In this document: positions 38,133 to 48,937 of the stretch, one piece after another
How the letters are laid out: every line of letters begins with the position of its first letter
Position numbering within the stretch: the stretch's first letter is position 1
The notes under the pieces: model-generated
The model's input: the letters and a program-made list of their open reading frames with translations, nothing else
What the model was told of the DNA's origin: nothing
Database searches by the model: none
Assembly (NCBI RefSeq): GCF_040838345.1
Contig: NZ_JBAKFF010000001.1
Location: 620,001 to 684,000, forward strand
Origin: Spiribacter sp. 1M189
Lineage (GTDB): Bacteria; Pseudomonadota; Gammaproteobacteria; Nitrococcales; Nitrococcaceae
Reading direction: 5' to 3'
Length of the DNA: 64,000 bases
Translations under genes and position numbers: made by a program

Positions 38133-38603
38133 TCAGGCCGCCGCGGTATGCGCGTCAAGCGAGATGATGTCCTCGTCGCTCAAATGCAGCCAGAAGGCCG
38201 TGACGATGGCATTGCGTCGTGCCCGGGCGGAGACGCGCTGATCCGGCAGGGGCCAGTCCAGGGGGTGGCCCGGATGGATGGCGACGCGGTCGAACAAAGC
38301 GCCGGTCAGACTGGGTGTTATCGTGACCGCCTGGAACAGCGTGACGTGCATGGGCCACTCGTAATGCGCCGGCGCCTCGGTCTGCGCGGCGACGCTCACC
38401 ATCCCGTTGCCCGATTGCCGGAAGCGCCGCCATGCGCGGAGGACCTCCGGCGCGCGAAGCAGGCGTTTGCGGGCATGCTGTTGCACCCGATCCAGCGCCA
38501 TGAGCAGATCGGACTTGTCGGGGTTGATCATGAGCTGGCGGCGCTGCGTGAGCTCGGCATAAAGCGAGTCCGGGATCTCCGGGCGGATGTAGTCTCGAGC
38601 CAT
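38133..38603 (-). CDS. Hypothetical protein, 156 residues
   Basis: A soluble protein starting MARDYIRPEIPDSLYAELTQRRQLMINPDKSDLL, with a basic central helix (QHARKRLLRAPEVLRAWRRFRQ) and a more hydrophobic second half. No family is recognised. The start at 38603 has GGAGG at good distance; the longer open frame to 38726 would enter the regulatory region. It is divergent from the amide operon and could share control elements with it, but nothing in the sequence shows a functional link. Confidence 0.6.
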   Translation of the reverse strand: MARDYIRPEIPDSLYAELTQRRQLMINPDKSDLLMALDRVQQHARKRLLRAPEVLRAWRRFRQSGNGMVSVAAQTEAPAHYEWPMHVTLFQAVTITPSLTGALFDRVAIHPGHPLDWPLPDQRVSARARRNAIVTAFWLHLSDEDIISLDAHTAAA

Positions 38604-38825
38604 CGGAATGCCTCCGTTGCGGTGGATGATGACGCAAGACTGGCAATAGCCGCCGGCGCCTTGCTGTGAACCCTGCCGCATCATCAACCTGCCCAACCGC
38701 GGTGCATTCATGTTGTTGCCATGCACTATAACGTCGCGTTTTTTCGTATTTCACTGTGTAGTTTGCCCCTGCGAGAATCCCACAAGCGACGGAATATACA
38801 AAAAATTTTAGGCAAAAGGACTGGT
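38604..38825. other. Non-coding region upstream of the amide operon promoter
   Basis: No gene is seen. Part of the region (about 38715-38820) is markedly AT-rich for this genome. An inverted repeat GTGCAT...ATGCAC (38702-38707 and 38721-38726) lies about 100 bp upstream of the sigma-54-like promoter, the distance typical for an activator site. It is only loosely like an NtrC site. The promoter of the leftward 156-residue gene must also be here. Confidence 0.4.
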
Positions 38826-38842: not shown

Positions 38843-39011
38843 TCTTCTTGTGCGGCACCGCATGGAACGCCGGATCAAAGGAGCAATGTGGCTCTGGATG
38901 ATCCAGTCGCCAGCCTGGACTCGGGCGAAACACGTCGCTCGATTGTTGCGGTGCACGGCACAAATGTGTTGACAGGCCGGCACAGGTATGTAGGACTGAA
39001 TGAACGTCGCG

Positions 39012-39061
39012 CATCAGTGTTGATGATGCGGCTGGTATAAAACATTGGGGCAGAGCGGCCC
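39012..39061 (+). promoter_or_regulatory. ANTAR (AmiR) target: two A1/G4 hexaloop hairpins
   Basis: Hairpin 1: stem CATC/GATG (39012-39015, 39022-39025) around loop AGTGTT. Hairpin 2: stem GGGC/GCCC (39048-39051, 39058-39061) around loop AGAGCG. Both six-base loops have A at position 1 and G at position 4, the known ANTAR recognition pattern, and are 22 nt apart. The 3' arm of hairpin 2 uses bases that also form the 5' arm of the terminator, so the two structures exclude each other. AmiR is encoded in the same operon. Confidence 0.8.
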
Positions 39062-39109
39062 ATCATCGAGGCGCCTTCCGGCGTGCTTGGTGATGGGCCG
39101 TTTTTTTTT
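39056..39109 (+). terminator. Leader attenuator terminator of the amide operon
   Basis: A perfect 10-bp stem (CGGCCCATCA at 39056-39065, TGATGGGCCG at 39091-39100) with an inner CGCC/GGCG helix, followed by nine T residues (39101-39109). It is an intrinsic terminator 47 nt before the first start codon. With the overlapping ANTAR hairpin it forms an attenuator: transcription stops here unless AmiR holds hairpin 2. Confidence 0.9.
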
Positions 39110-39155
39110 GCTTGGCGCGGGCTGACAGCGCCACAAAACCTGAAGGAGGCGTCTC

Positions 39156-40400
39156 ATGGATCGCCGCAAATTTCTGAAAGGTATGGGTTTAGGGGGTGCG
39201 GCCGGCGTTGCGGCCGTTAACGGATTCCCGCATGTGTGGGTCAAGGGCGGTACCGCGATGGCGGCATCGGGAGAGATCCCGGTGGGAGTGCTTTTCTCGC
39301 AGACGGGTGCGGTCGCCGTTGTCGAGAGTACGTTGCACGACGCCTGCATGATGGCTATTGAGGAGATCAATGCGAGCGGTGGCGTCAATGGCCGCATGCT
39401 CAAACCATTCGTCGAGGATCCGGCGTCGGACCCGGCGACCTTTGCCGATCGCGCCAACCGTCTGGTGCGCCGCGACAAAGTGGTATCGGTCTTCGGCTCC
39501 TACACATCAGCAAGCCGTCAGGCCGTGCTGCCGGTGGTTGAGGGTCAGAACAATCTTTACTGGTATCCAACGCTGTACGAGGGGCGCGAGTGCTCGCGCA
39601 ACGTGATGTACGGCGGCGCGGTACCCAACCAGCAGCAGCAGGAGTTTGTGCCCTGGCTCATGGAGAATTTCGGCGGGCGCTTCTACCTCCTCGGTAACGA
39701 CTACGTGTATCCGCGCGAGGAAAACAACGTTTGCCGGATGATCCTGGATGATTTCGGTGGCGAGGTCGTCAACGAGGAATACGTGCCGCTGGGCCATGAC
39801 AGCTTCAGCTCGATCATCAGCCGCATCCGGCGTGAGCAGCCCGACGTCATCTTCTGCACCCTCGTGGGAGACTCCGACGTGGCTTTCCAGCGTGAGTACC
39901 GTGCTGCCGGCCTGGACGCCGAGAAGATGCCGGTAGCGAGCCTTACCCGCTCCGAGGTGGAGGTCCGTGCCATCGGTGGGGATGCAGCAGCGGGCCATTT
40001 CTCGTCGGCACCCTATTTCATGGGGCATGACTCGCCTGAGAATGAGCAGTTCGTCGAAGCCTATCTCTCGAAGTACGGCGGAGATCAGGTGACTCATTTC
40101 GTTAATGAGGCGGCCTATTTCCAGGTCTATCAGTTCAAGGCCGCGGTCGAGGCCCTCGGGGACGTGGACCTCACGCCAGCCGCCATTCGCGATGCGGCCA
40201 TTGGGCAGTCACTGCGTGCGCCGCAGGGTGACATTCTCATCGACGGCAATCTCCACACGCATCTCTGGCCGAAGATTGCCCAGTGGCAGCCGGATGGCCA
40301 GGCCCGGGTGGTCGTAGAGTCAAGCGAGCGCGTCGCGCCCGAGCCTTACTGGGCCTACGACTTCCAGACCTGCACGATCGCGGGGCTGGAGGAGGGCTGA
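39156..40400 (+). CDS. urtA: Urea/short-chain amide ABC transporter substrate-binding protein
   Basis: A 414-residue periplasmic receptor. The N terminus MDRRKFLKGMGLGGAAG is a twin-arginine (Tat) signal. The mature protein (from GEIPVGVLFSQTGAVAVVESTLHDACMMAIEEINASGG) follows the UrtA/FmdD/AmiC family, with VEDPASDPATFA, SYTSASRQAVLPVVE and YPTLYEGRECSRNVMYGGAVPNQQ. Ligand is urea, formamide or acetamide; the amidase in the operon favours an aliphatic amide. It is clearly homologous to the cytoplasmic sensor AmiC at the other end of the operon. AAGGAGG precedes the ATG. Confidence 0.9.
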   Translation: MDRRKFLKGMGLGGAAGVAAVNGFPHVWVKGGTAMAASGEIPVGVLFSQTGAVAVVESTLHDACMMAIEEINASGGVNGRMLKPFVEDPASDPATFADRANRLVRRDKVVSVFGSYTSASRQAVLPVVEGQNNLYWYPTLYEGRECSRNVMYGGAVPNQQQQEFVPWLMENFGGRFYLLGNDYVYPREENNVCRMILDDFGGEVVNEEYVPLGHDSFSSIISRIRREQPDVIFCTLVGDSDVAFQREYRAAGLDAEKMPVASLTRSEVEVRAIGGDAAAGHFSSAPYFMGHDSPENEQFVEAYLSKYGGDQVTHFVNEAAYFQVYQFKAAVEALGDVDLTPAAIRDAAIGQSLRAPQGDILIDGNLHTHLWPKIAQWQPDGQARVVVESSERVAPEPYWAYDFQTCTIAGLEEG

Positions 40401-40457: not shown

Positions 40458-40489
40458 TCTATCCCGATAGTCTATCTGGAGTGGGGACG

Positions 40490-41359
40490 ATGGGCGTCTT
40501 TCTCAACGAATTGTTTATAGGGCTGAGCCTGGCCTCGATTCTGCTGATGGTCGCGCTGGGGCTGGCGATCATTTACGGATCGATGGGTGTCATCAATCTC
40601 GCCCACGGTCAGTTCGTGATGCTGGGCGCCTATGGCGCCTGGTTGCTGCAGGATGCCCTGGGCTTGAGCCTCTTGCTCGCGATCCCGATCGTGTTTCTGG
40701 CCGTTGGTCTGATCGGAATCGTTATAGAGCGAGCCGTGGTTCATCGGCTCTACCACCGGCCGCTGGACACCATCCTCGCCACGTGGGGGATCGGTATTGT
40801 GATTGAGCAGGTGGTGCGTCTTCTGCTGAGCTCGGATGCGCGTTATGTGGCGCGTCCAGGGTTTCTCGATTCCGGCTTTGATCTCGCTGGCGCTTACATC
40901 GCCTCCTACCGACTTTTCGTCGTGGTCTTCGCGCTCGGCATGTTTGCCGCGACCTGGTACGTCATGTTCCGCACCGAATTTGGCATGCGTCTGCGCGCCA
41001 TGGTGCAGAACGTCGAGATTTCCCGGTGCTACGGCATTAGTGCCCGGCGCATCTATGCGTTGACGTTTGCCTATGGGGCCGGCCTGGCTGGCATTGCCGG
41101 GGCCCTCGTCAGTCCTCTCGTCAGCGTGACGCCGACGATGGGCAATAGCTTTGTCGTCGATGCTTTCCTGGTGGTGATCGTTGGGGGCGTCGGCAGCCTC
41201 CTCGGCGCTGGGACTTCCGCGCTCATGCTCGGCGAGGCCACCGCGTGGCTGTCCTTCCTGTTCAACGAGACCACCGGCCGGATCCTCATCCTGCTGGCTG
41301 TCGTCGTGTTCATCCGCTTCCGCCCGGAAGGGATGTTCCCCGCGAAAGTGCGTGGCTAG
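40490..41359 (+). CDS. urtB: Branched-chain/urea-type ABC permease (UrtB-like)
   Basis: A 289-residue LivH-type permease with about eight membrane helices. It starts MGVFLNELFIGLSLASILLMVALGLAIIYGSMGVINLAHGQFVMLGAYGAW, the classic N terminus of this family. The ATPase-contact region is CYGISARRIYALTFAYGAGLAG, and GGVGSLLGAG follows. An upstream GTG (40481) is possible. It lacks the long periplasmic N-terminal domain of some cyanobacterial UrtB proteins. Confidence 0.88.
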   Translation: MGVFLNELFIGLSLASILLMVALGLAIIYGSMGVINLAHGQFVMLGAYGAWLLQDALGLSLLLAIPIVFLAVGLIGIVIERAVVHRLYHRPLDTILATWGIGIVIEQVVRLLLSSDARYVARPGFLDSGFDLAGAYIASYRLFVVVFALGMFAATWYVMFRTEFGMRLRAMVQNVEISRCYGISARRIYALTFAYGAGLAGIAGALVSPLVSVTPTMGNSFVVDAFLVVIVGGVGSLLGAGTSALMLGEATAWLSFLFNETTGRILILLAVVVFIRFRPEGMFPAKVRG

Positions 41360-41371
41360 GAGATTGCTGCA

Positions 41372-42487
41372 ATGAACCGTATGTTCAAATTCGACTGTGT
41401 CGGCTATCTGATCTTCGCGCTGATCGTCCTGGTGCTGATGCCCGCCATGGTCGGCTTCGGGGGCTACGAGCTGAACACCTATTCCCGCTATCTGGCACTG
41501 GGCATGGTGGCCGCCGCGGTTGCGCTGTCGTGGGGGCAGGCCGGCATCCTGAATCTCGGCCAGGCGCTTACGTTTGGCATCGGCGCCTATTTCACGGCGA
41601 TGCACCTCAAGCTCAAAGCCAGTGCCTCGCTGGCGGGTGGGTTGCCGGACTTCATGGGCTGGACCAATGTTGAGGCGTTGCCCTGGTTCTGGGTGCCGTT
41701 TCACTCGTTGGCGTTCACCCTGGCGGCGATCATTCTGGTTCCCGCCGCGCTGGCTGGACTGCTTGGGGCCTTCATGTTCCGCGGCCGGATTACCGGTGTC
41801 TTCGTTGCCATCATCACGCTCTCGCTGATGCTGGCCGTGCAGCTCTGGATCATCAGCGAGCAGGGCTGGACCGGCGGTGAGAACGGGCTCACGGGACTGG
41901 CACCGCTCAGCATCTTCGGCTTCTCGCTGGATCCCTACACAGTCGCGTTCTACTACCTGACCGCCGGCTTGCTGTTATTTGTCCTCGGACTTGCGCTGGT
42001 CATCGTCAAGAGCAAGGCCGGCCTGGTGCTTCGCGCTATCCGTGAGAACCCCGAACGGGTGCGCTTCTTCGGCTACGACGTATCGCGCTACGAAACGATC
42101 GTCTTCGCGGTCTCGGCGTCGATGTCCGGCCTTGCCGGCATGATCTACTGCCTGGTGCTCGAGTTCGCGTCGCCGACCTACATGGGGCTCTCGCTCAGCC
42201 TGGCCATGGTGATCTGGGCCGCCGTCGGTGGCCGTGAGTCGGTCATCGCGGCGGCGCTCGGCGGCATCGCGGTCAATATGGCGGAGGGAAAGCTCTCCGA
42301 TCTGTTCTTCGATCAGTGGACGCTGATGCTTGGCGTGATCTTCATCGCGGTGGTGCTCTTCTTGCCGCGCGGCATTTTCGGGCTGATCGATCAGCTGCGC
42401 CTGCGTTTTCACGAGCGTGGCAGCCGTGAGCAGCGTGTCGATGCCGAGCCGCTGAGCCCCCCCAAAACCACAGAGCAGGAGGGCTGA
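41372..42487 (+). CDS. urtC: Branched-chain/urea-type ABC permease (UrtC-like)
   Basis: A 371-residue LivM-type permease with about ten helices. ALSWGQAGILNLGQALTFGIGAYFTAMHLKLKA and AIRENPERVRFFGYDVSRYETIVFAVSASMSGLAG are the family landmarks. An insertion near residues 88-105 (ASLAGGLPDFMGWTNVEALPWFW) is typical for the urea and amide group and not for amino-acid permeases. It is followed by the two ATPase genes. Confidence 0.9.
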   Translation: MNRMFKFDCVGYLIFALIVLVLMPAMVGFGGYELNTYSRYLALGMVAAAVALSWGQAGILNLGQALTFGIGAYFTAMHLKLKASASLAGGLPDFMGWTNVEALPWFWVPFHSLAFTLAAIILVPAALAGLLGAFMFRGRITGVFVAIITLSLMLAVQLWIISEQGWTGGENGLTGLAPLSIFGFSLDPYTVAFYYLTAGLLLFVLGLALVIVKSKAGLVLRAIRENPERVRFFGYDVSRYETIVFAVSASMSGLAGMIYCLVLEFASPTYMGLSLSLAMVIWAAVGGRESVIAAALGGIAVNMAEGKLSDLFFDQWTLMLGVIFIAVVLFLPRGIFGLIDQLRLRFHERGSREQRVDAEPLSPPKTTEQEG

Positions 42488-42491
42488 GGCG

Positions 42492-43241
42492 ATGGCGTCC
42501 GTCACACTCGAGTCACTCACCGTCCGCTTCGGCGGGCTGGTGGCAGTCAACGAACTCGATCTGCAGGTCCGTGATGGCGAACTGCGGTGCTTACTCGGGC
42601 CGAATGGAGCGGGTAAATCCACCACGCTCGATCTTATCTGCGGGAAGACCCGGCCCACCTCCGGGCGGATTCTGCTGGGTGGCACGGATATCACGACCCT
42701 GCATGAGTTCGAGCGAGCGCGCCACGGCGTCGGGCGCAAGTTCCAGACTCCAAGTGTTTTCAAGGACCTGACAGTGCTTGAAAACCTGGAGGTCGCGCGG
42801 TCGGCGAACCCATCCTTTCTGCATTCGCTACGCGTTTTCCGAACATCGGTCCAGGGCCGGATCCAGGAGGTTCTCGATCTGGTCGGGCTGAGCGCGGAGG
42901 TCGCCACGCGGGCCGGCAATCTCTCTCATGGCCAGACCCAATGGCTCGAGATTGCCATGCTCCTCATCCAGGACTGTCAGGTCCTGCTCATGGATGAACC
43001 CACGGCTGGCATGACGATTCAGGAAACCGAACAGACGGCCAGGCTCTTCAGCCAGTTGCGTGGTGAGCACACGATGATCGTGGTCGAGCATGACATGAGT
43101 TTCGTCCGTGATATCGCCGAGACCGTCACCGTCATGGACATGGGGAAGCTGCTGGCCCAGGGCACGATCCAGGAGATAGAGGCCGATCCAAAGGTTCGGG
43201 AAGCCTATCTGGCGGATACGGGGGATGAGGCTCATGCTTGA
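42492..43241 (+). CDS. urtD: Urea/amide ABC transporter ATPase UrtD-like
   Basis: A 249-residue ATPase of the LivG type. Walker A is LLGPNGAGKST. The segment VGRKFQTPSVFKDLTVLENLEVA (RKFQTPSVF) is distinctive for UrtD. The signature is degenerate (NLSHGQTQWLEIAMLL), also as in UrtD, and Walker B is VLLMDEPTAGMT. It energises the permease pair together with the UrtE-like ATPase. Confidence 0.92.
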   Translation: MASVTLESLTVRFGGLVAVNELDLQVRDGELRCLLGPNGAGKSTTLDLICGKTRPTSGRILLGGTDITTLHEFERARHGVGRKFQTPSVFKDLTVLENLEVARSANPSFLHSLRVFRTSVQGRIQEVLDLVGLSAEVATRAGNLSHGQTQWLEIAMLLIQDCQVLLMDEPTAGMTIQETEQTARLFSQLRGEHTMIVVEHDMSFVRDIAETVTVMDMGKLLAQGTIQEIEADPKVREAYLADTGDEAHA

Positions 43242-43929
43242 GGTAAAGGATCTCTATTCCTATTACGGCAAGAGCCCGGTCATCCAGGGGATCGACTTCC
43301 AGGTGGCCGAGGGCGGGTTTTTCGGCGTCGTCGGGCGAAATGGCGTTGGCAAGACGACGCTCCTGCGAACCCTCATGGGACTGACCGACAGGGCGACCGG
43401 GACAATCCGCTTCAACGGCCAGGATCTGCTCCAGAAGACCACGCCCGAGCGCGCCGGGGCGGGGATTGCCTACATTCCCCAGGGGCGTGAGGTGATTCCG
43501 CGCTTTACCGTGCGCGAAAACCTGATCATGGGCACTTTCCCGCGCGAGGACGGCAGTCGCGACATCCCCGAGCACATCTTCGAGATGTTCCCGATTCTCG
43601 ATGAGTTCATCGAGCGCCGGGCCGGCGACCTGTCCGGAGGGCAGCAACAGCAGCTTGCCATCGGTCGCGCCCTGGCAATGAAGCCGCGGATCATGCTTCT
43701 GGACGAGCCCACCGAGGGGATTCAGCCGAATATCGTCCAGCAGATTGAGCAGGTGCTGAAGCAGCTCAACCGGGAGATGGGCCTGACGATCATCCTCGTC
43801 GAGCAGAACACCCGTTTCGTGCGGGAGGTTGCCGACGAGTTTTTGCTTATCGAAAAGGGCCGCGTCTCGCTGCGGGGGCCTGGCGAGGCGCTCACCGGCG
43901 AGGTCGTTGAGAAGTATTTGTCGATTTAG
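43234..43929 (+). CDS. urtE: Urea/amide ABC transporter ATPase UrtE-like
   Basis: A 231-residue LivF-type ATPase. Walker A is [11 protein letters not shown], then [25 protein letters not shown] (the GREVIPR segment is close to UrtE), signature [16 protein letters not shown] and Walker [15 protein letters not shown]. The ATG at 43234 overlaps urtD by 8 nt; an ATG 9 nt upstream is also possible. It is the last gene of the transporter set and is followed after 64 nt by amiE. Confidence 0.92.
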
Positions 43930-43993: not shown

Positions 43994-45040
43994 ATGCGTC
44001 ACGGTGATATTTCGAGTAGTAACGACACGGTCGGCGTCGCCGTTGTCAACTACAAGATGCCCCGGCTGCATACCAAGGCCGAGGTGCTGGACAATGCCCA
44101 GAACATTGCCGACATGGTCGTCGGCATGAAGAAGGGTTTGCCGGGCATGGATCTGGTCATTTTCCCGGAGTACAGCACCCACGGGATTATGTACGACCCT
44201 GATGAGATGATGGAGACCGCCTCGACTATCCCGGGCGACGAAACTGAGATCTTCGCCAAGGCCTGCCGTCAGGCGAACACCTGGGGGGTTTTCTCTCTGA
44301 CGGGTGAACGCCACGAGGAGCATCCCAAGAAGAGCCCCTACAACACGCTTGTTCTGATGAATAATAAAGGCGAGATCGTCCAGCGCTACCGCAAGGTGAT
44401 CCCCTGGTGTCCCATTGAGGGCTGGTATCCGGGTGGCCATACCTATGTGAGTGAAGGGCCGAAGGGGCTCAAGGTCAGCCTGATCATCTGCGATGACGGC
44501 AACTACCCGGAGATCTGGCGCGACTGTGCCATGAAGGGTGCCGAACTGATCGTCCGCTGCCAGGGCTATATGTATCCGGCGAAGGAGCAGCAGATCAACA
44601 TGGCCAAGTGCATGGCCTGGGCCAACAACTCCTATGTGGCCGTTGCCAATGCCACCGGGTTTGACGGGGTCTACAGCTACTTCGGGCACTCCGCGCTGGT
44701 CGGTTTCGACGGTCGCACGCTGGGTGAGTGCGGTGAGGAAGAGATGGGGATCCAGTACGCGCAGATGTCCGTTTCGCAGATTCGTGACGCCCGTGCCAAT
44801 GATCAGTCGCAGAACCATCTCTTCAAGATCCTGCATCGGGGCTACACCGGCATGCATGACTCGGGCGACGGGGACAAGGGCGTAGCCGAGTGCCCGTTCG
44901 AGTTCTACAAGACCTGGGTCAACGACGCCGAGAAGGCGCGTGAAGATGTCGAGGCCATGACCCGCGAGACGGTCGGTACGGCCGAATGCCCCGTGGGCAA
45001 CCTGCCGTATGCAGCGAAGGAGAAGTCAGCGGGTAAATAA
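43994..45040 (+). CDS. amiE: Aliphatic amidase AmiE
   Basis: A 348-residue nitrilase-fold amidase that hydrolyses short aliphatic amides to carboxylic acid and ammonia. The catalytic triad falls exactly at family positions: Glu59 (FPEYSTHG), Lys134 (YRKVIPWCP) and Cys166 ([11 protein letters not shown]). The length equals that of the Pseudomonas aeruginosa enzyme. AGGAGAG lies 6 nt before the ATG, and the longer frame to 43829 is out of frame with urtE and unlikely. Its ammonia product is the likely purpose of the operon. Confidence 0.95.
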
Positions 45041-45059
45041 GCTGACGGGCTGCCGTTGT

Positions 45060-45081
45060 GCCCGGCACCCTGGTGCCGGGC
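45060..45081 (+). other. Perfect hairpin between amiE and amiB
   Basis: GCCCGGCACC (45060-45069) is followed after two bases by its exact complement (45072-45081), so at least nine pairs with a four-base loop form. No T-run follows. Placed right after amiE, it should stabilise the upstream message or reduce read-through into the accessory genes amiB, amiC and amiR. Confidence 0.65.
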
Positions 45082-45120
45082 CGCGGCATGCAGACGATCC
45101 TTTCAGGGAGAGGCCATTGG

Positions 45121-46260
45121 ATGCCGTTTCTGACCGACAGACTGGCCGATGCCGAGCGCAACCGAGCCGACCGTGAAGCCCTGGCCGCCGAGAGTGTGGG
45201 CAATGGCTTGCAGAATGCCGCCGAAGAGACTGCGAACCTGCAATCGCGCTACAAGTTTGATGTTGCCGGCGTCATGGCAGTGGTTCGGCACGAGGTGCGG
45301 GGGCAGTCTCAGGCGCTCGACGCCATTGAGCGCATGCTCAAGGTTGTCCGGGCGGACATCGCGGACCCTCGTCGACCCCCTTTTACGGCATTGTTTCTGG
45401 GCCCGACCGGTGTCGGTAAGACCGAGACCGTCCGCGCGTTGGCCCGTGGGCTGTATGACGATGCTGATGCCTTCTGCCGGGTCGATATGAATACGCTCTC
45501 GCAGGAGCACTATGCCGCCGCGATTACCGGGGCGCCGCCAGGGTACGTCGGCGCCAAGGAGGGTAAGACCATCCTTGATCAGGAGCTTATCGAGGGGCAG
45601 CGGGGCAGGCCGGGAATCGTCCTATTTGATGAGATCGAAAAAGCCAGTCCAGAGGCGACCCAGGCGCTGCTGAATGTCTTCGACAATGGCCAGATGACGG
45701 TCGCTTCGGGGGAGCGCACCTACAGTTTTCGCAACACCATCGTGCTCATGACCAGCAATCTTGGTGCTCGCGATATCTACCAGCACGAGGCGCTTGGCCG
45801 CGGTCGCCTTGGTCATTGGCGGCGCCTGCGTCGGTGGCTCGCCGGGCATAAACTCGACGAACTGCTGCGCAATCGGCTGAATGACCATTTCTCACCGGAA
45901 TTCGTCAATCGCATAGATAACATTACGGTCTATAACTGGATCGAGCGCGAGATGGTCGAGGAGCTGGCGGGAATCGAGATCGAAAGGCTTAACCGGCGGC
46001 TGCAAAAGCACAATTGCAGGCTGGCGCTCGATCATGCGGCCCGCCGGGCATTGGCGGCCCGGGGGTTCGATCGTCAGTACGGCGCCCGGGCCCTGCGGCG
46101 GGTCATTCGCAGCGAGGTGGAGGTGCCGTTTGCCGAGTATTTGCTGAGCGGTGCGCATGACCCCGCCGCCCATCACGGGGCACCGGCGACCTACGAGGTG
46201 CGCATCAATAAAAGCGACGATATGGAATTTCATCGTATGACCGAGCGGGAAAATCAATGA
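45121..46260 (+). CDS. amiB: AmiB, AAA+ ATPase of the amidase operon
   Basis: A 379-residue ClpA/B-type AAA+ protein. Walker A is LGPTGVGKTE, Walker B IVLFDEIEKASPEA, with TSNLGARD (sensor 1) and FSPEFVNRIDNITVYN (arginine finger region). The end has RQYGARALRRVI (sensor 2). It carries a single ATPase module without a Clp N domain or a zinc finger. AmiB is present in the P. aeruginosa amidase operon with uncertain role, perhaps as chaperone. I start at ATG 45121; an earlier in-frame ATG would cover the hairpin. Confidence 0.85.
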   Translation: MPFLTDRLADAERNRADREALAAESVGNGLQNAAEETANLQSRYKFDVAGVMAVVRHEVRGQSQALDAIERMLKVVRADIADPRRPPFTALFLGPTGVGKTETVRALARGLYDDADAFCRVDMNTLSQEHYAAAITGAPPGYVGAKEGKTILDQELIEGQRGRPGIVLFDEIEKASPEATQALLNVFDNGQMTVASGERTYSFRNTIVLMTSNLGARDIYQHEALGRGRLGHWRRLRRWLAGHKLDELLRNRLNDHFSPEFVNRIDNITVYNWIEREMVEELAGIEIERLNRRLQKHNCRLALDHAARRALAARGFDRQYGARALRRVIRSEVEVPFAEYLLSGAHDPAAHHGAPATYEVRINKSDDMEFHRMTERENQ

Positions 46261-47414
46261 CAGGGAATCGAAACGAGGAAAGCTGGCCGGTTGGCATCCT
46301 GTTCTCGCAGACAGGCGTTACCGCGATCATCGAGCAGTCGCAGCTCAACGGCGCGCTGCTCGCCATCGACGAAATCAACGAAGCAGGCGGTGCGGCGGGC
46401 CGGCCGATTTCGCCGATCATTCTTGATCCAGCCTCCGATCCCGTCCGCTATCGGACCATGGCGGAAGAGCTGCTCGGCAGTCTCCAGACCAATGTCATCT
46501 TCGGCTGCTATATGTCCTCTTCCAGAAAGGAAGTGCTGCCGGTGGTCGAGCGCTATAACGGGCTGCTCTTCTACCCGACCCTGTACGAAGGTTTCGAGTA
46601 TTCGCCGAACGTCATCTACGGGGGGGCCGCGCCCAATCAGAACAGTCTGCCCCTTGCCATGTACCTGATGGACAATTTCGGTTCTCGATTTTATTTCGTC
46701 GGGTCGGATTATATCTACCCGCGCGAGTCCAACCGGGTGATGCGCAATATCGTCCGCCAGGGGGGCGGAGAGGTGGTCGCCGAGAAATACGTTGATCTGA
46801 GCGCCGGTCCCGAGGACTTTGCGCCGATCATCCAGCACATCGCCGAGGTTCAGCCCGATGTGGTGTTCTCAACCGTGGTCGGTACCGGCACGGTGAATTT
46901 CTACCGCGCTTACCATGAGGCCGGTGGCGATGGCCTGCAGCGGCCGATCGCGAGCCTGACCACCAATGAAGCAGAGGTGGCGGCCATGGGTAACGCATCG
47001 GCGCAGGGGCATATCACCGCCGCGCCGTACTTCCGCAACATCGTCACCCGCCGCAATATGGACTTCCTGGCCCGTTACCAGGCGAAGTTCGGTGAGGTGG
47101 AGACGGTCACGAGCGCTTGTGAGGCCGCTTATTTTCAGGTTCACTTGTATGCCAACGCGCTGAGACTCGCGGGTGCGGGAAACACGGATCAGTTGCGCTC
47201 GGTATTGCGCGGGGCGGAATTTGAAGCACCGCAGGGACGCATCAAGGTTGATCCGGACAACAATCATGCGTATCTGCTATCCCGAATTGCGCGAGTGGAC
47301 GATCAAGGCGAGTTCATCCTCGAGCGCGAGGCCTCTCGCCCGATCAAGCCGGACCCCTACCTGGCCGTGCCGGCCTTGAACGACTGGGCCAACACGCCGG
47401 TCTGGATTCGATGA
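46257..47414 (+). CDS. amiC: AmiC, cytoplasmic amide sensor and negative regulator
   Basis: A 385-residue binding-protein fold without any signal peptide, so it acts in the cytoplasm. It starts ESWPVGILFSQTGVTAIIEQSQLNGALLAIDEINEAGG and has YPTLYEGFEYSPNVIYGGAAPNQN. AmiC binds AmiR and keeps it inactive until an amide occupies the cleft. It overlaps amiB (4 nt) and amiR (4 nt), the arrangement expected of a stoichiometric regulator pair. Confidence 0.92.
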   Translation: MTGNRNEESWPVGILFSQTGVTAIIEQSQLNGALLAIDEINEAGGAAGRPISPIILDPASDPVRYRTMAEELLGSLQTNVIFGCYMSSSRKEVLPVVERYNGLLFYPTLYEGFEYSPNVIYGGAAPNQNSLPLAMYLMDNFGSRFYFVGSDYIYPRESNRVMRNIVRQGGGEVVAEKYVDLSAGPEDFAPIIQHIAEVQPDVVFSTVVGTGTVNFYRAYHEAGGDGLQRPIASLTTNEAEVAAMGNASAQGHITAAPYFRNIVTRRNMDFLARYQAKFGEVETVTSACEAAYFQVHLYANALRLAGAGNTDQLRSVLRGAEFEAPQGRIKVDPDNNHAYLLSRIARVDDQGEFILEREASRPIKPDPYLAVPALNDWANTPVWIR

Positions 47415-48049
47415 CGGGCGACGAGGGCATTATTGAACGCCTCCGCGGGCTGAATGCTCTCGTGCTGCATCCCAGAGACGGTGATGCCGAAGAGCTACTG
47501 CTGCAGCTCAACCGGATCGGATGCCGAGCGCAGGCGGTCTGGCCACCGCCCAAGGTGGATGCGGATCCGGTGGATATCGCCTTTATCCTTGTCCAGGAAA
47601 AGCCGCTTGAGAGTATTCTTGAGTATCTCGAGCGCCAGTCAACGCGTCCTTCCCTCATTGGCCTTGCCGGCTACGAGAGCCCGTCGGTACTTAATCACCT
47701 GATTTCGCTGCAGGTCGATAGTGTGCTGACCAAGCCGATCCGCCCCTCGGGGGTCCTGACCAGTATGGTCACCGCGCGGCGGATCTGGCAGGAGTGCCGG
47801 CACAAGGACCGGTTGATCTCAAAACTTCGAAGCAAGGTCGAGAACAGCCAGAAACTCAATGATGCCAAACTGATCCTGATGCGCCTGCACGAGATCGGCG
47901 AGCAGGATGCCTATCGGGCGATGCGCCAGCAGGCCATGGAGTCACGGCAGACCGTGACCGAGGTCGCCGAGGCCATCATTCAGTCACACTCCCTGCTGAC
48001 GAGCCTTGTCAGTCACAGAGATTTTGACGCTGATCCCGGCCCTGACTGA
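47411..48049 (+). CDS. amiR: AmiR, ANTAR antitermination protein
   Basis: A 212-residue regulator. The N-terminal part is a pseudo-receiver domain (ALVLHPRDGDAEELLLQLNRIGC) without the phosphoacceptor set. A coiled coil follows (KDRLISKLRSKVENSQKLNDAKLILM), and then the three-helix ANTAR RNA-binding domain with GEQDAYRAMRQQAMESRQTVTEVAEAII. It should bind the twin hairpins at 39012-39061 and prevent termination at 39056-39109. It is the last gene of the operon. Confidence 0.94.
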   Translation: MTGDEGIIERLRGLNALVLHPRDGDAEELLLQLNRIGCRAQAVWPPPKVDADPVDIAFILVQEKPLESILEYLERQSTRPSLIGLAGYESPSVLNHLISLQVDSVLTKPIRPSGVLTSMVTARRIWQECRHKDRLISKLRSKVENSQKLNDAKLILMRLHEIGEQDAYRAMRQQAMESRQTVTEVAEAIIQSHSLLTSLVSHRDFDADPGPD

Positions 48050-48148
48050 ATCCGAGCCCGCCATCCTGATTCCACCGCGTCATGATTGCAGCTGACATGA
48101 CGTTCCTGTTAAGTGTGCAGTGCAACATACGCAGGAACAGGAGTCAGT

Positions 48149-48937
48149 ATGAGCACCAGTACGCTACCCGGTGACTTTTCCCTGGAAGGCCGGGTGGGGA
48201 TCGTTACCGGTCTCGCCAATGAGAACAGCATTGCCTATGGCTGCGCTCGGGCGCTCTCGGCGCTGGGCGCGGAGTTCATGGTGACCTATGCCAGCCCCAG
48301 GGCGGAGCGGTTCGTGACCCCGCTTGCCGAGGCAATGGGCAATCCGGAGTACCAGCTTTGCGATGTGCAGGATCCGGACTCGCTCGCCGGTCTGTTCCGC
48401 CGGGCGGAAGAGCGCTGGGGCCGGCTCGACTTCGTCATTCACTCCATTGCCTTCGCCCCGCTGGAGGATCTGCACGGGCGGTTGACGGATTCGTCATCAG
48501 CGGGCTTCACCCAGGCCATGGATGTCTCCTGTCATTCCTTCATTCGCATGGCCCATCACGCCGAGCCGCTCATGAGCGAGGGCGGTAGCCTGATCTGCAT
48601 GACCTATCACGGTGCCGATCAGGCAGTAGCCAACTATGGCCTGATGGGACCCGTGAAGGCGGCACTGGAGTCGTCGACCCGTTACCTGGCCACTGAGCTG
48701 GGGCCTGCGGGCATTCGCGTCAACGCCATCTCGCCCGGGCCGATCCGGACCCGGGCGGCTTCCGGGTTGAAGGACTTCGAGGAGCTCGCCACCGACGGCG
48801 AGACACGATCGCCGCTGGGACGGCTGGCTACCGTTGAGGACATCGGCAACACGGCGGCCTGGCTGATCTCGGATGCCGGCTCCGCGGTTACCGGCGGGAT
48901 CCATTACGTGGATGCCGGTCATCACATTCAGTTCTGA
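48149..48937 (+). CDS. fabI: Enoyl-ACP reductase FabI-like
   Basis: A 262-residue SDR of the FabI type, the last step of the fatty acid elongation cycle. The N terminus has GIVTGLANENSIAYGCARAL, as in FabI rather than ordinary SDRs. The active site tyrosines and lysine are in TYHGADQAVANYGLMGPVKAAL (Y-x6-K), and the end reads GGIHYVDAGHHI. I start at 48149, with AGGAG 5 nt upstream; 12 more upstream codons are open. It is followed by a MaoC/phosphotransacetylase fusion, an operon seen in proteobacteria with PHA or acyl-phosphate metabolism, so it may not be the only FabI. Confidence 0.88.
   Translation: MSTSTLPGDFSLEGRVGIVTGLANENSIAYGCARALSALGAEFMVTYASPRAERFVTPLAEAMGNPEYQLCDVQDPDSLAGLFRRAEERWGRLDFVIHSIAFAPLEDLHGRLTDSSSAGFTQAMDVSCHSFIRMAHHAEPLMSEGGSLICMTYHGADQAVANYGLMGPVKAALESSTRYLATELGPAGIRVNAISPGPIRTRAASGLKDFEELATDGETRSPLGRLATVEDIGNTAAWLISDAGSAVTGGIHYVDAGHHIQF

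Follow-up and report, generated by a model that had tools for sequence, protein, structure and literature searches.

The closest described systems are leader RNAs read by ANTAR proteins. Ramesh 2012 (PMC3369931) states that the amiE leader of Pseudomonas aeruginosa carries two hairpins with A1/G4 loops, i.e., with A at loop position 1 and G at position 4, and that amide frees AmiR from AmiC in this species; the same paper lists urea transporters among ANTAR RNA targets and describes NasR as sensing nitrate itself via a NIT domain. SELEX with NasR favoured A1/G4 together with a C:G closing pair (PMC7496416). In the EutV-RNA crystal structure, G4 stacks on Tyr164 and A1 is without specific contact (Walshe 2022, PMC8934654), and in actinobacteria both loop letters are conserved in more than 50% (PMC8164766). 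The linker between the two hairpins (P1 and P2) measures 5-12 nt in the eut leaders, where 14 nt cuts induction drastically (Ramesh 2012, PMC3369931), and the actinobacterial ANTAR work accepted linkers of 2-25 nt (PMC8164766). An amiE operon with amiC, amiR and ABC transporter genes is reported from a Klebsiella plasmid (PMC13209695).

In the 64,000-nucleotide stretch of Spiribacter sp. 1M189 that we analyzed (the window), we identified a leader that is very probably an ANTAR transcription attenuator for an amide operon. This reading is well supported by the anatomy of the leader, by mutually exclusive folds, by conservation with linked changes, and by cognate proteins that hold most of the RNA-gripping residues. 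The features of the leader are as follows:

38969-38974, plus strand: TTGACA, a -35-like hexamer and possible promoter (sequence read)
39006-39032, plus strand: P1 hairpin, 10 bp with bulged A39026, hexaloop AGUGUU at 39016-39021 (A1, G4), C-G closing pair (sequence read and fold)
39033-39047, plus strand: P1-P2 linker, 15 nt (sequence read and fold)
39048-39061, plus strand: P2 hairpin GGGC-AGAGCG-GCCC, hexaloop at 39052-39057 (A1, G4), C-G closing pair (sequence read and fold)
39056-39100, plus strand: intrinsic terminator stem-loop, whose 5' arm includes the P2 3' arm (folding)
39101-39109, plus strand: terminator T run, nine T (sequence read)
39143-39149, plus strand: AAGGAGG, likely ribosome-binding site for the first gene (sequence read)

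Sequence reading and folding confirmed the two A1/G4 hexaloops, AGTGTT and AGAGCG, that a preliminary description of this DNA had pointed out, as well as its claim that the second hairpin has bases 39056-39061 in common with the terminator. The P1 loop lies between CATC and GATG, which form four apical pairs, and the P2 arms are GGGC (39048-39051) and GCCC (39058-39061). The distance of 22 nt given earlier between the hairpins holds if P1 is taken as these four apical pairs only, whereas the full P1 stem leaves 15 nt, i.e., a linker beyond the eut range of 5-12 nt and within the actinobacterial range of 2-25 nt. Nine T residues do follow the terminator, but to call its stem perfect was too strong, since G-U pairs and a bulge lie inside the outer ten Watson-Crick pairs. 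With both A1/G4 hexaloops, stems of at least 3 bp, C-G closing pairs and a terminator overlapping P2, the pattern is what the two-hairpin ANTAR model demands, as had been proposed. The TTGACA hexamer also stands just 5' of P1 in two Aquisalimonas relatives (L022 and L023), and in Marinobacter sp. ELB17 (L024) it is not exact; a promoter scan found nothing on the plus strand, and there is no clear -10 element.

Because the 5' arm of the terminator contains the 3' arm of P2 (shared bases 39056-39061), the P2 and terminator folds are mutually exclusive. P1 folded alone gave a dG of -13.9 (z -2.6; 3 of 200 shuffles equally good), and its minimum-energy fold adds an A1-U6 pair, which leaves a tetraloop unless this A-U pair opens. 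The energies of P2 alone (-7.4 kcal/mol) and of P1 and P2 jointly are unremarkable, given z-scores of -1.35 (28 of 200 shuffles equally good) and -1.54 (16 of 200), respectively. The P2 loop plus terminator reached -42.3 kcal/mol (z -7.1), which none of 200 shuffles equalled. A strong terminator alone would thus account for the fold energy, P2 alone being matched by the shuffles just counted, and the element might then be an ordinary terminator that ends an upstream or a leaderless short transcript, with the hairpins incidental. We regard this as highly improbable: the nearest upstream open reading frame with homologues (38133-38726) lies on the strand opposite to the operon, so its transcript needs no end here, the T run stops 46 nt short of the start codon of the first gene, and the closest relatives retain both P1 and P2 in loop and stem, with linked changes appearing across the larger group of leaders (see below).

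Searches with motif models bear on the same point. A descriptor consisting of two A1/G4 hexaloop hairpins, a terminator overlapping P2 and a T run had a single match in the window, searched on each strand (2 x 64 kb), and that match is this leader; none of 3000 dinucleotide shuffles of 38900-39155 matched. Over 73 AmiR loci gathered by a scan of genomes (2.66 Mb, both strands) it matched 12 sites, 10 of which precede a binding-protein, AmiC or AmiE gene; of the two others, one lies in L024 on the opposite strand, and the second reaches into the start of AmiC in L075. A pattern search of the whole genome, which is blind to the leader of a second AmiC-AmiR operon described below, gave 10 matches, and by eye the terminator pairs back to the P2 arm in this leader only; the match at 905368, for example, has a terminator-like hairpin without pairing to its P2 arm. 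The covariance-model search suggested earlier was carried out with a model built from L022, L023 and L024, excluding the window leader, and it found the leader weakly: within the window the leader scored 16.1 bits (E 0.011) and one other site 15.3 bits (E 0.018), and across the whole genome the leader ranked 5 of 15 (E 0.33). The covariation score of these three sequences was reached by 92 of 500 shuffles, three being too few sequences to decide; sliding the pair partners in their alignment lowered pairing from 93% to at most 49%.

At gathering thresholds, Rfam gave no match in the window, and no ANTAR model matched at these or at relaxed thresholds. In a relaxed search of 38900-39200 (up to E 10) the sole match was to ctRNA_p42d, at 21.5 bits (E 0.021 over the 301 bases searched). 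That the element is instead a small RNA or antisense-like element, as this sub-threshold likeness might be taken to indicate, is scarcely credible, with a score far under the cutoff of 50, a matched part that consists of a terminator-type stem and U run, and a location in a leader with conserved ANTAR features.

The genes that follow support the assignment as an ANTAR leader. We identified nine, from transporter through AmiR, which would lie on one transcript:

39156-40400, plus strand: substrate-binding protein of the transporter (Peripla_BP_5, 445 bits; UrtA model, 397 bits, below its cutoff of 493)
40481-41359, plus strand: UrtB-like permease (TIGR03409, 319 bits, above its cutoff of 250)
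41372-42487, plus strand: UrtC-like permease (TIGR03408, 337 bits, above its cutoff of 296)
42492-43241, plus strand: UrtD-like ATPase (TIGR03411, 323 bits, above its cutoff of 304)
43225-43929, plus strand: UrtE-like ATPase (TIGR03410, 306 bits, above its cutoff of 286)
43994-45040, plus strand: AmiE aliphatic amidase (NF009802, 716 bits, cutoff 427; start set at the beginning of the family match)
45058-46260, plus strand: AAA ATPase, ClpB D2-like (AAA_2, ClpB_D2-small; start uncertain)
46257-47414, plus strand: AmiC, amide sensor and inhibitor of AmiR (Peripla_BP_5; best solved relative AmiC 1pea, E 1.1e-114)
47411-48049, plus strand: AmiR, ANTAR antiterminator (AmiR_N and ANTAR domains; AmiR 1qo0_D, E 8.2e-31; EutV 6wsh, E 8e-5)

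Thus AmiE, AmiC and AmiR are encoded together in this operon. By its position we take the AAA ATPase to be the AmiB known from P. aeruginosa. The binding protein starts with a Tat-like signal, RRKFLK (by reading). UrtB, UrtC, UrtD and UrtE all score above their curated cutoffs, and since the binding protein stays under that of UrtA (397 against 493), the transporter more likely takes up an amide than urea, as judged from these family scores. AmiR was expected to be the last gene of the operon; it is encoded there, but its last place is unproven, as a FabI-like open reading frame on the same strand (48113-48937) starts 63 nt (GTG) or about 100 nt (ATG) past AmiR. The expectation that the leader governs the transporter along with the amidase agrees with the gene content, yet such an arrangement is not unusual.

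We then compared AmiR with EutV by alignment, taking the EutV numbers as positions in the 6wsh chain. EutV Tyr164, Arg168, Met172, Arg175, Lys149 and Glu160 correspond to Y168, R172, M176, R179, K153 and E164 of AmiR, and in 74 AmiRs these columns hold Y in 61 (H in 8, F in 4, L in 1), R in 74, M in 72, R in 74, K in 69 and E in 72, respectively. AmiR differs from EutV at four RNA-contact residues (Arg142, Lys143, Lys147 and Asn173). The AmiR of this operon is most likely the protein predicted to bind the hexaloops of the leader.

The genome contains two ANTAR genes. The second AmiR-like gene (L095:8353-9009) belongs to a region outside the window (L095:7161-14754) with a second AmiC-AmiR pair and a terminator leader, whose P2 is GGGCATCGGAGCCC with a run of eight T. 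In this second leader the P1 loop is noncanonical (5 nt in the fold) and the P2 stem is GGGC/GCCC like that of the window leader; behind AmiR lie UrtABCDE-like genes and a gene for an FmdA-like acetamidase/formamidase (names from reading the translations). A true ANTAR target in the window could therefore be read mainly by this second AmiR-like protein, or by both, given two ANTAR genes in one genome and a second one that also sits behind a terminator leader with the same P2 stem. We consider this unlikely, in that the second leader differs in its P1, and the second AmiR-like gene stands behind an AmiC-like gene and ahead of transporter genes of its own; co-location favours each AmiC-AmiR pair as serving its own operon.

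AmiR_N was matched in none of 13 genus-mate genomes examined, some of them only 74-87% complete. In two of three genus-mate regions (L133 and L135, not L134), a distance of 1.8 kb separates the homologues of the genes that flank the operon, namely 38133-38726 on its left and the FabI-like gene; the operon was therefore either gained in this genome or lost in its genus-mates. In L133, an adenine-deaminase-like gene (named by reading) occupies the gap where the window carries the ami operon.

Among the 73 AmiR loci, 28 have a binding protein, UrtB-E and AmiE beside AmiR; in others, contig or flank ends cut the cluster, or AmiE occurs without a transporter. The order seen in the window (transporter, AmiE, AAA, AmiC, AmiR) recurs in four loci: L022 and L023 (Aquisalimonas), L024 (Marinobacter sp. 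ELB17) and L033 (Xinfangfangia). On a tree of AmiR, the first three group with the window at 100% SH-aLRT (a quick method, which gave a long-branch warning). The ANTAR reading had been said to fail if A1/G4 or stem pairing were lost where a close relative still has the operon; all three of these relatives keep both loops and stems, with P1 stems that have changed around the two conserved A1/G4 loops. More distant loci depart from this form. For example, L033, with the same gene order, has a P1 loop without G4 (AGCAGC) and P2 AATGCA, and L034, which has AmiE-AAA-AmiC-AmiR with no transporter in front, has AACAGC and AAGAGG, with G4 absent in both. A further relative (L110/L136), in which the transporter comes first and the AAA gene is separated from AmiC by about 2.3 kb, has loops AACGGC and AAAGAT and one C.C mismatch in P2.

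Several loci carry additional leaders. Eight (L025, L027, L028, L029, L030, L031, L081 and L092) contain two terminator leaders, the first preceding amiC-amiR and the other preceding the transporter or amidase, where the window has one for all genes. In Marinobacter sp. ELB17, another two-hairpin terminator leader (L024:13652-13739, minus strand; P1 AACGAA, P2 AAAGAA) was matched by both the descriptor and the covariance model; it precedes a permease-like and then an alpha/beta-hydrolase-like gene (names by reading), and is possibly a second AmiR target. The annotation of a Roseibium locus (L154) likewise places a cytosine permease and an alpha/beta hydrolase ahead of AmiC.

The compensating changes that had been called for in related leaders are seen in a wider set of 24 leaders, hand-selected from 15 loci plus the window; both here and in the larger tables below, many entries are closely related to one another. 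Since linker lengths vary (loop-to-loop distance of 21-41 nt in the 19 leaders measured), the hairpins fell out of register when mixed leaders were aligned with MAFFT, and pairs were therefore counted on loop-anchored strings. In these selected leaders, the closing pair is C-G in all 19 defined P1 and all 24 P2 hairpins, and the outer pairs of P1 show up to five standard pair types; complete P1 pairing is conditioned on a hairpin having been found, and 5 of the 24 are without a hexaloop P1 entry. Of the 24 P2 loops, 22 carry A1 and 23 carry G4, and 5 of the 96 pair cells of P2 are unpaired. The third pair of P2 and its terminator partner read GCG in 15 leaders, ATA in 7 and ATG in 2, and since the shared base and its partners change together (GCG to ATA or ATG), P2 and the terminator both stay paired at this position. 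A P1 of at least 4 bp with an A1/G4 hexaloop occurs within 50 nt before P2 in 15 of the 24, against 0.76 expected and a maximum of 4 in 500 shuffle rounds; no other pair of loop letters exceeded 3 in the same test. A search with no letters preset covered 138 upstream regions from 72 loci, and 77 of these regions contain a T run; hexaloops on 4-bp stems overlapping a terminator were A1/G4 in 18 regions and had other letters in 4.

We also asked how strictly A1 and G4 hold together. A stricter first descriptor matched 8 of 135 upstream regions and an energy version 10 of 138, and the misses of both are not evidence of absence, because both are blind to a P1 mismatch below the closing pair or to a non-A position 1. 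In an unfiltered count with 3-bp Watson-Crick stems, in which one region may count under several letter pairs, the P2 letters at positions 1/4 were A/G in 28, T/G in 15, G/G in 14 and others in 9 entries; 61 of 138 regions had any match, and a further 16 had a T run with no hexaloop match. All 15 members of the T class, which come from Bradyrhizobium, Rhodopseudomonas and their relatives, carry A at position 6. A 56-row P2 table (55 distinct rows) was filtered for G4 in P2 and so says nothing on G4 itself; in its distinct rows, with a mismatch allowed below the closing pair, P1 was A1/G4 in 32 (1.2 expected) and G1/G4 in 14 (2.0 expected), and 9 of the 55 had no P1 with G4. In Bradyrhizobium, Rhodopseudomonas, Ancylobacter and Methylopila, P2 often has T1 (with A at 6) or G1 with G4 kept, and P1 often has a one-base mismatch below its C-G closing pair. 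On a quick tree of 49 AmiRs, P2 position 1 changed at least 6 times.

Eight fresh plasmid loci were chosen from 25 of 269 matching records, and of the 17 regions viewed, 7 had no match. G4 was present in 9 of 15 raw P2 matches and, after one was picked per region by eye, in 9 of 10, with position 1 being A in 4, T in 3, G in 2 and C in 1. This replication is only supportive since the by-eye cut was not blind, the pick in L153 among five candidates, for example, being guided by the expected form. In a Raoultella plasmid (L150), the P2 candidate AATAGA is without G4, an exception to the G4 rule.

Related leaders nearly always keep G4 in P2 but frequently show T or G at position 1, which makes the A1/G4 rule look too narrow. 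On balance we lean towards the view that AmiR operons fix G4 and let P2 position 1 drift among A, T and G (T always with A6 in the Bradyrhizobium/Rhodopseudomonas class), that AmiR reads G4 alone, that many proteobacterial amide/urea-type transporter operons are under ANTAR control and are missed by searches demanding A1, and that the window leader is the canonical end of this range. Such drift with G4 kept fits the EutV structure, in which G4 is contacted and A1 is not (PMC8934654), and the actinobacterial conservation of more than 50% (PMC8164766) offers a precedent for departures from A1/G4. Among the papers listed by searches of the open-licence literature, none deals with this leader or with P2 loops that start with T or G; such leaders could be listed in the supplementary tables of Ramesh 2012. 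The comparative set offers a series of naturally occurring variants of the ANTAR loop, which could help to extend the prediction of ANTAR targets.

For the window, AmiR binding, amide as the signal and read-through at the leader are what we infer from these data. With no amide, AmiC, as a cytoplasmic amide sensor, would keep AmiR inactive; RNA polymerase would make P1, the terminator stem would capture the 3' arm of P2, and transcription would stop at the T run. With amide present, AmiC would release AmiR, and dimeric AmiR would grip the P1 and P2 hexaloops via G4, so that P2 would be held as a hairpin and the terminator blocked. Read-through would then allow the transporter, amidase, AAA protein, AmiC and AmiR genes to be transcribed. 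Since the genes for AmiC and AmiR are themselves downstream of the switch that these proteins would operate, the circuit would feed back on itself. The locus is a clean testable case of a single RNA switch that would govern uptake and breakdown jointly with its own regulators.

Set beside known systems, this leader is a clean further example of a known switch type and not a surprise, the biology being already known. With the amidase operon of P. aeruginosa, whose leader is taken as described in Ramesh 2012, this operon shares AmiE, AmiC, AmiR and a two-hairpin A1/G4 leader, but here a five-gene UrtABCDE-like ABC transporter precedes amiE, and a FabI-like reductase follows amiR in place of amiS, its neighbour in P. 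aeruginosa. As in the eut leaders and EutV of Enterococcus faecalis, there are two A1/G4 hexaloops, an overlap of P2 with the terminator, and an ANTAR Tyr, Arg and Met at the RNA face; the window differs in having AmiC instead of a histidine kinase, and a linker of 15 nt instead of 5-12. The two hairpins, and the C:G closing pair and A1/G4 that NasR preferred in SELEX, are shared with nasF/NasR of Klebsiella oxytoca, in which NasR does its own nitrate sensing via NIT, whereas AmiC is the likely sensor here. AmiC/AmiR next to such transporters is common, as seen in the annotation of the eight plasmid records, with AmiC/ANTAR pairs beside ABC transporter genes. The amiC-amiR-urtABCDE-like-amiE clusters of alphaproteobacteria and plasmids have the same or similar gene content as the window, but in most of them amiC-amiR head the cluster, and in several a second leader precedes amiC, whereas the Spiribacter operon carries its regulators last, behind one leader.
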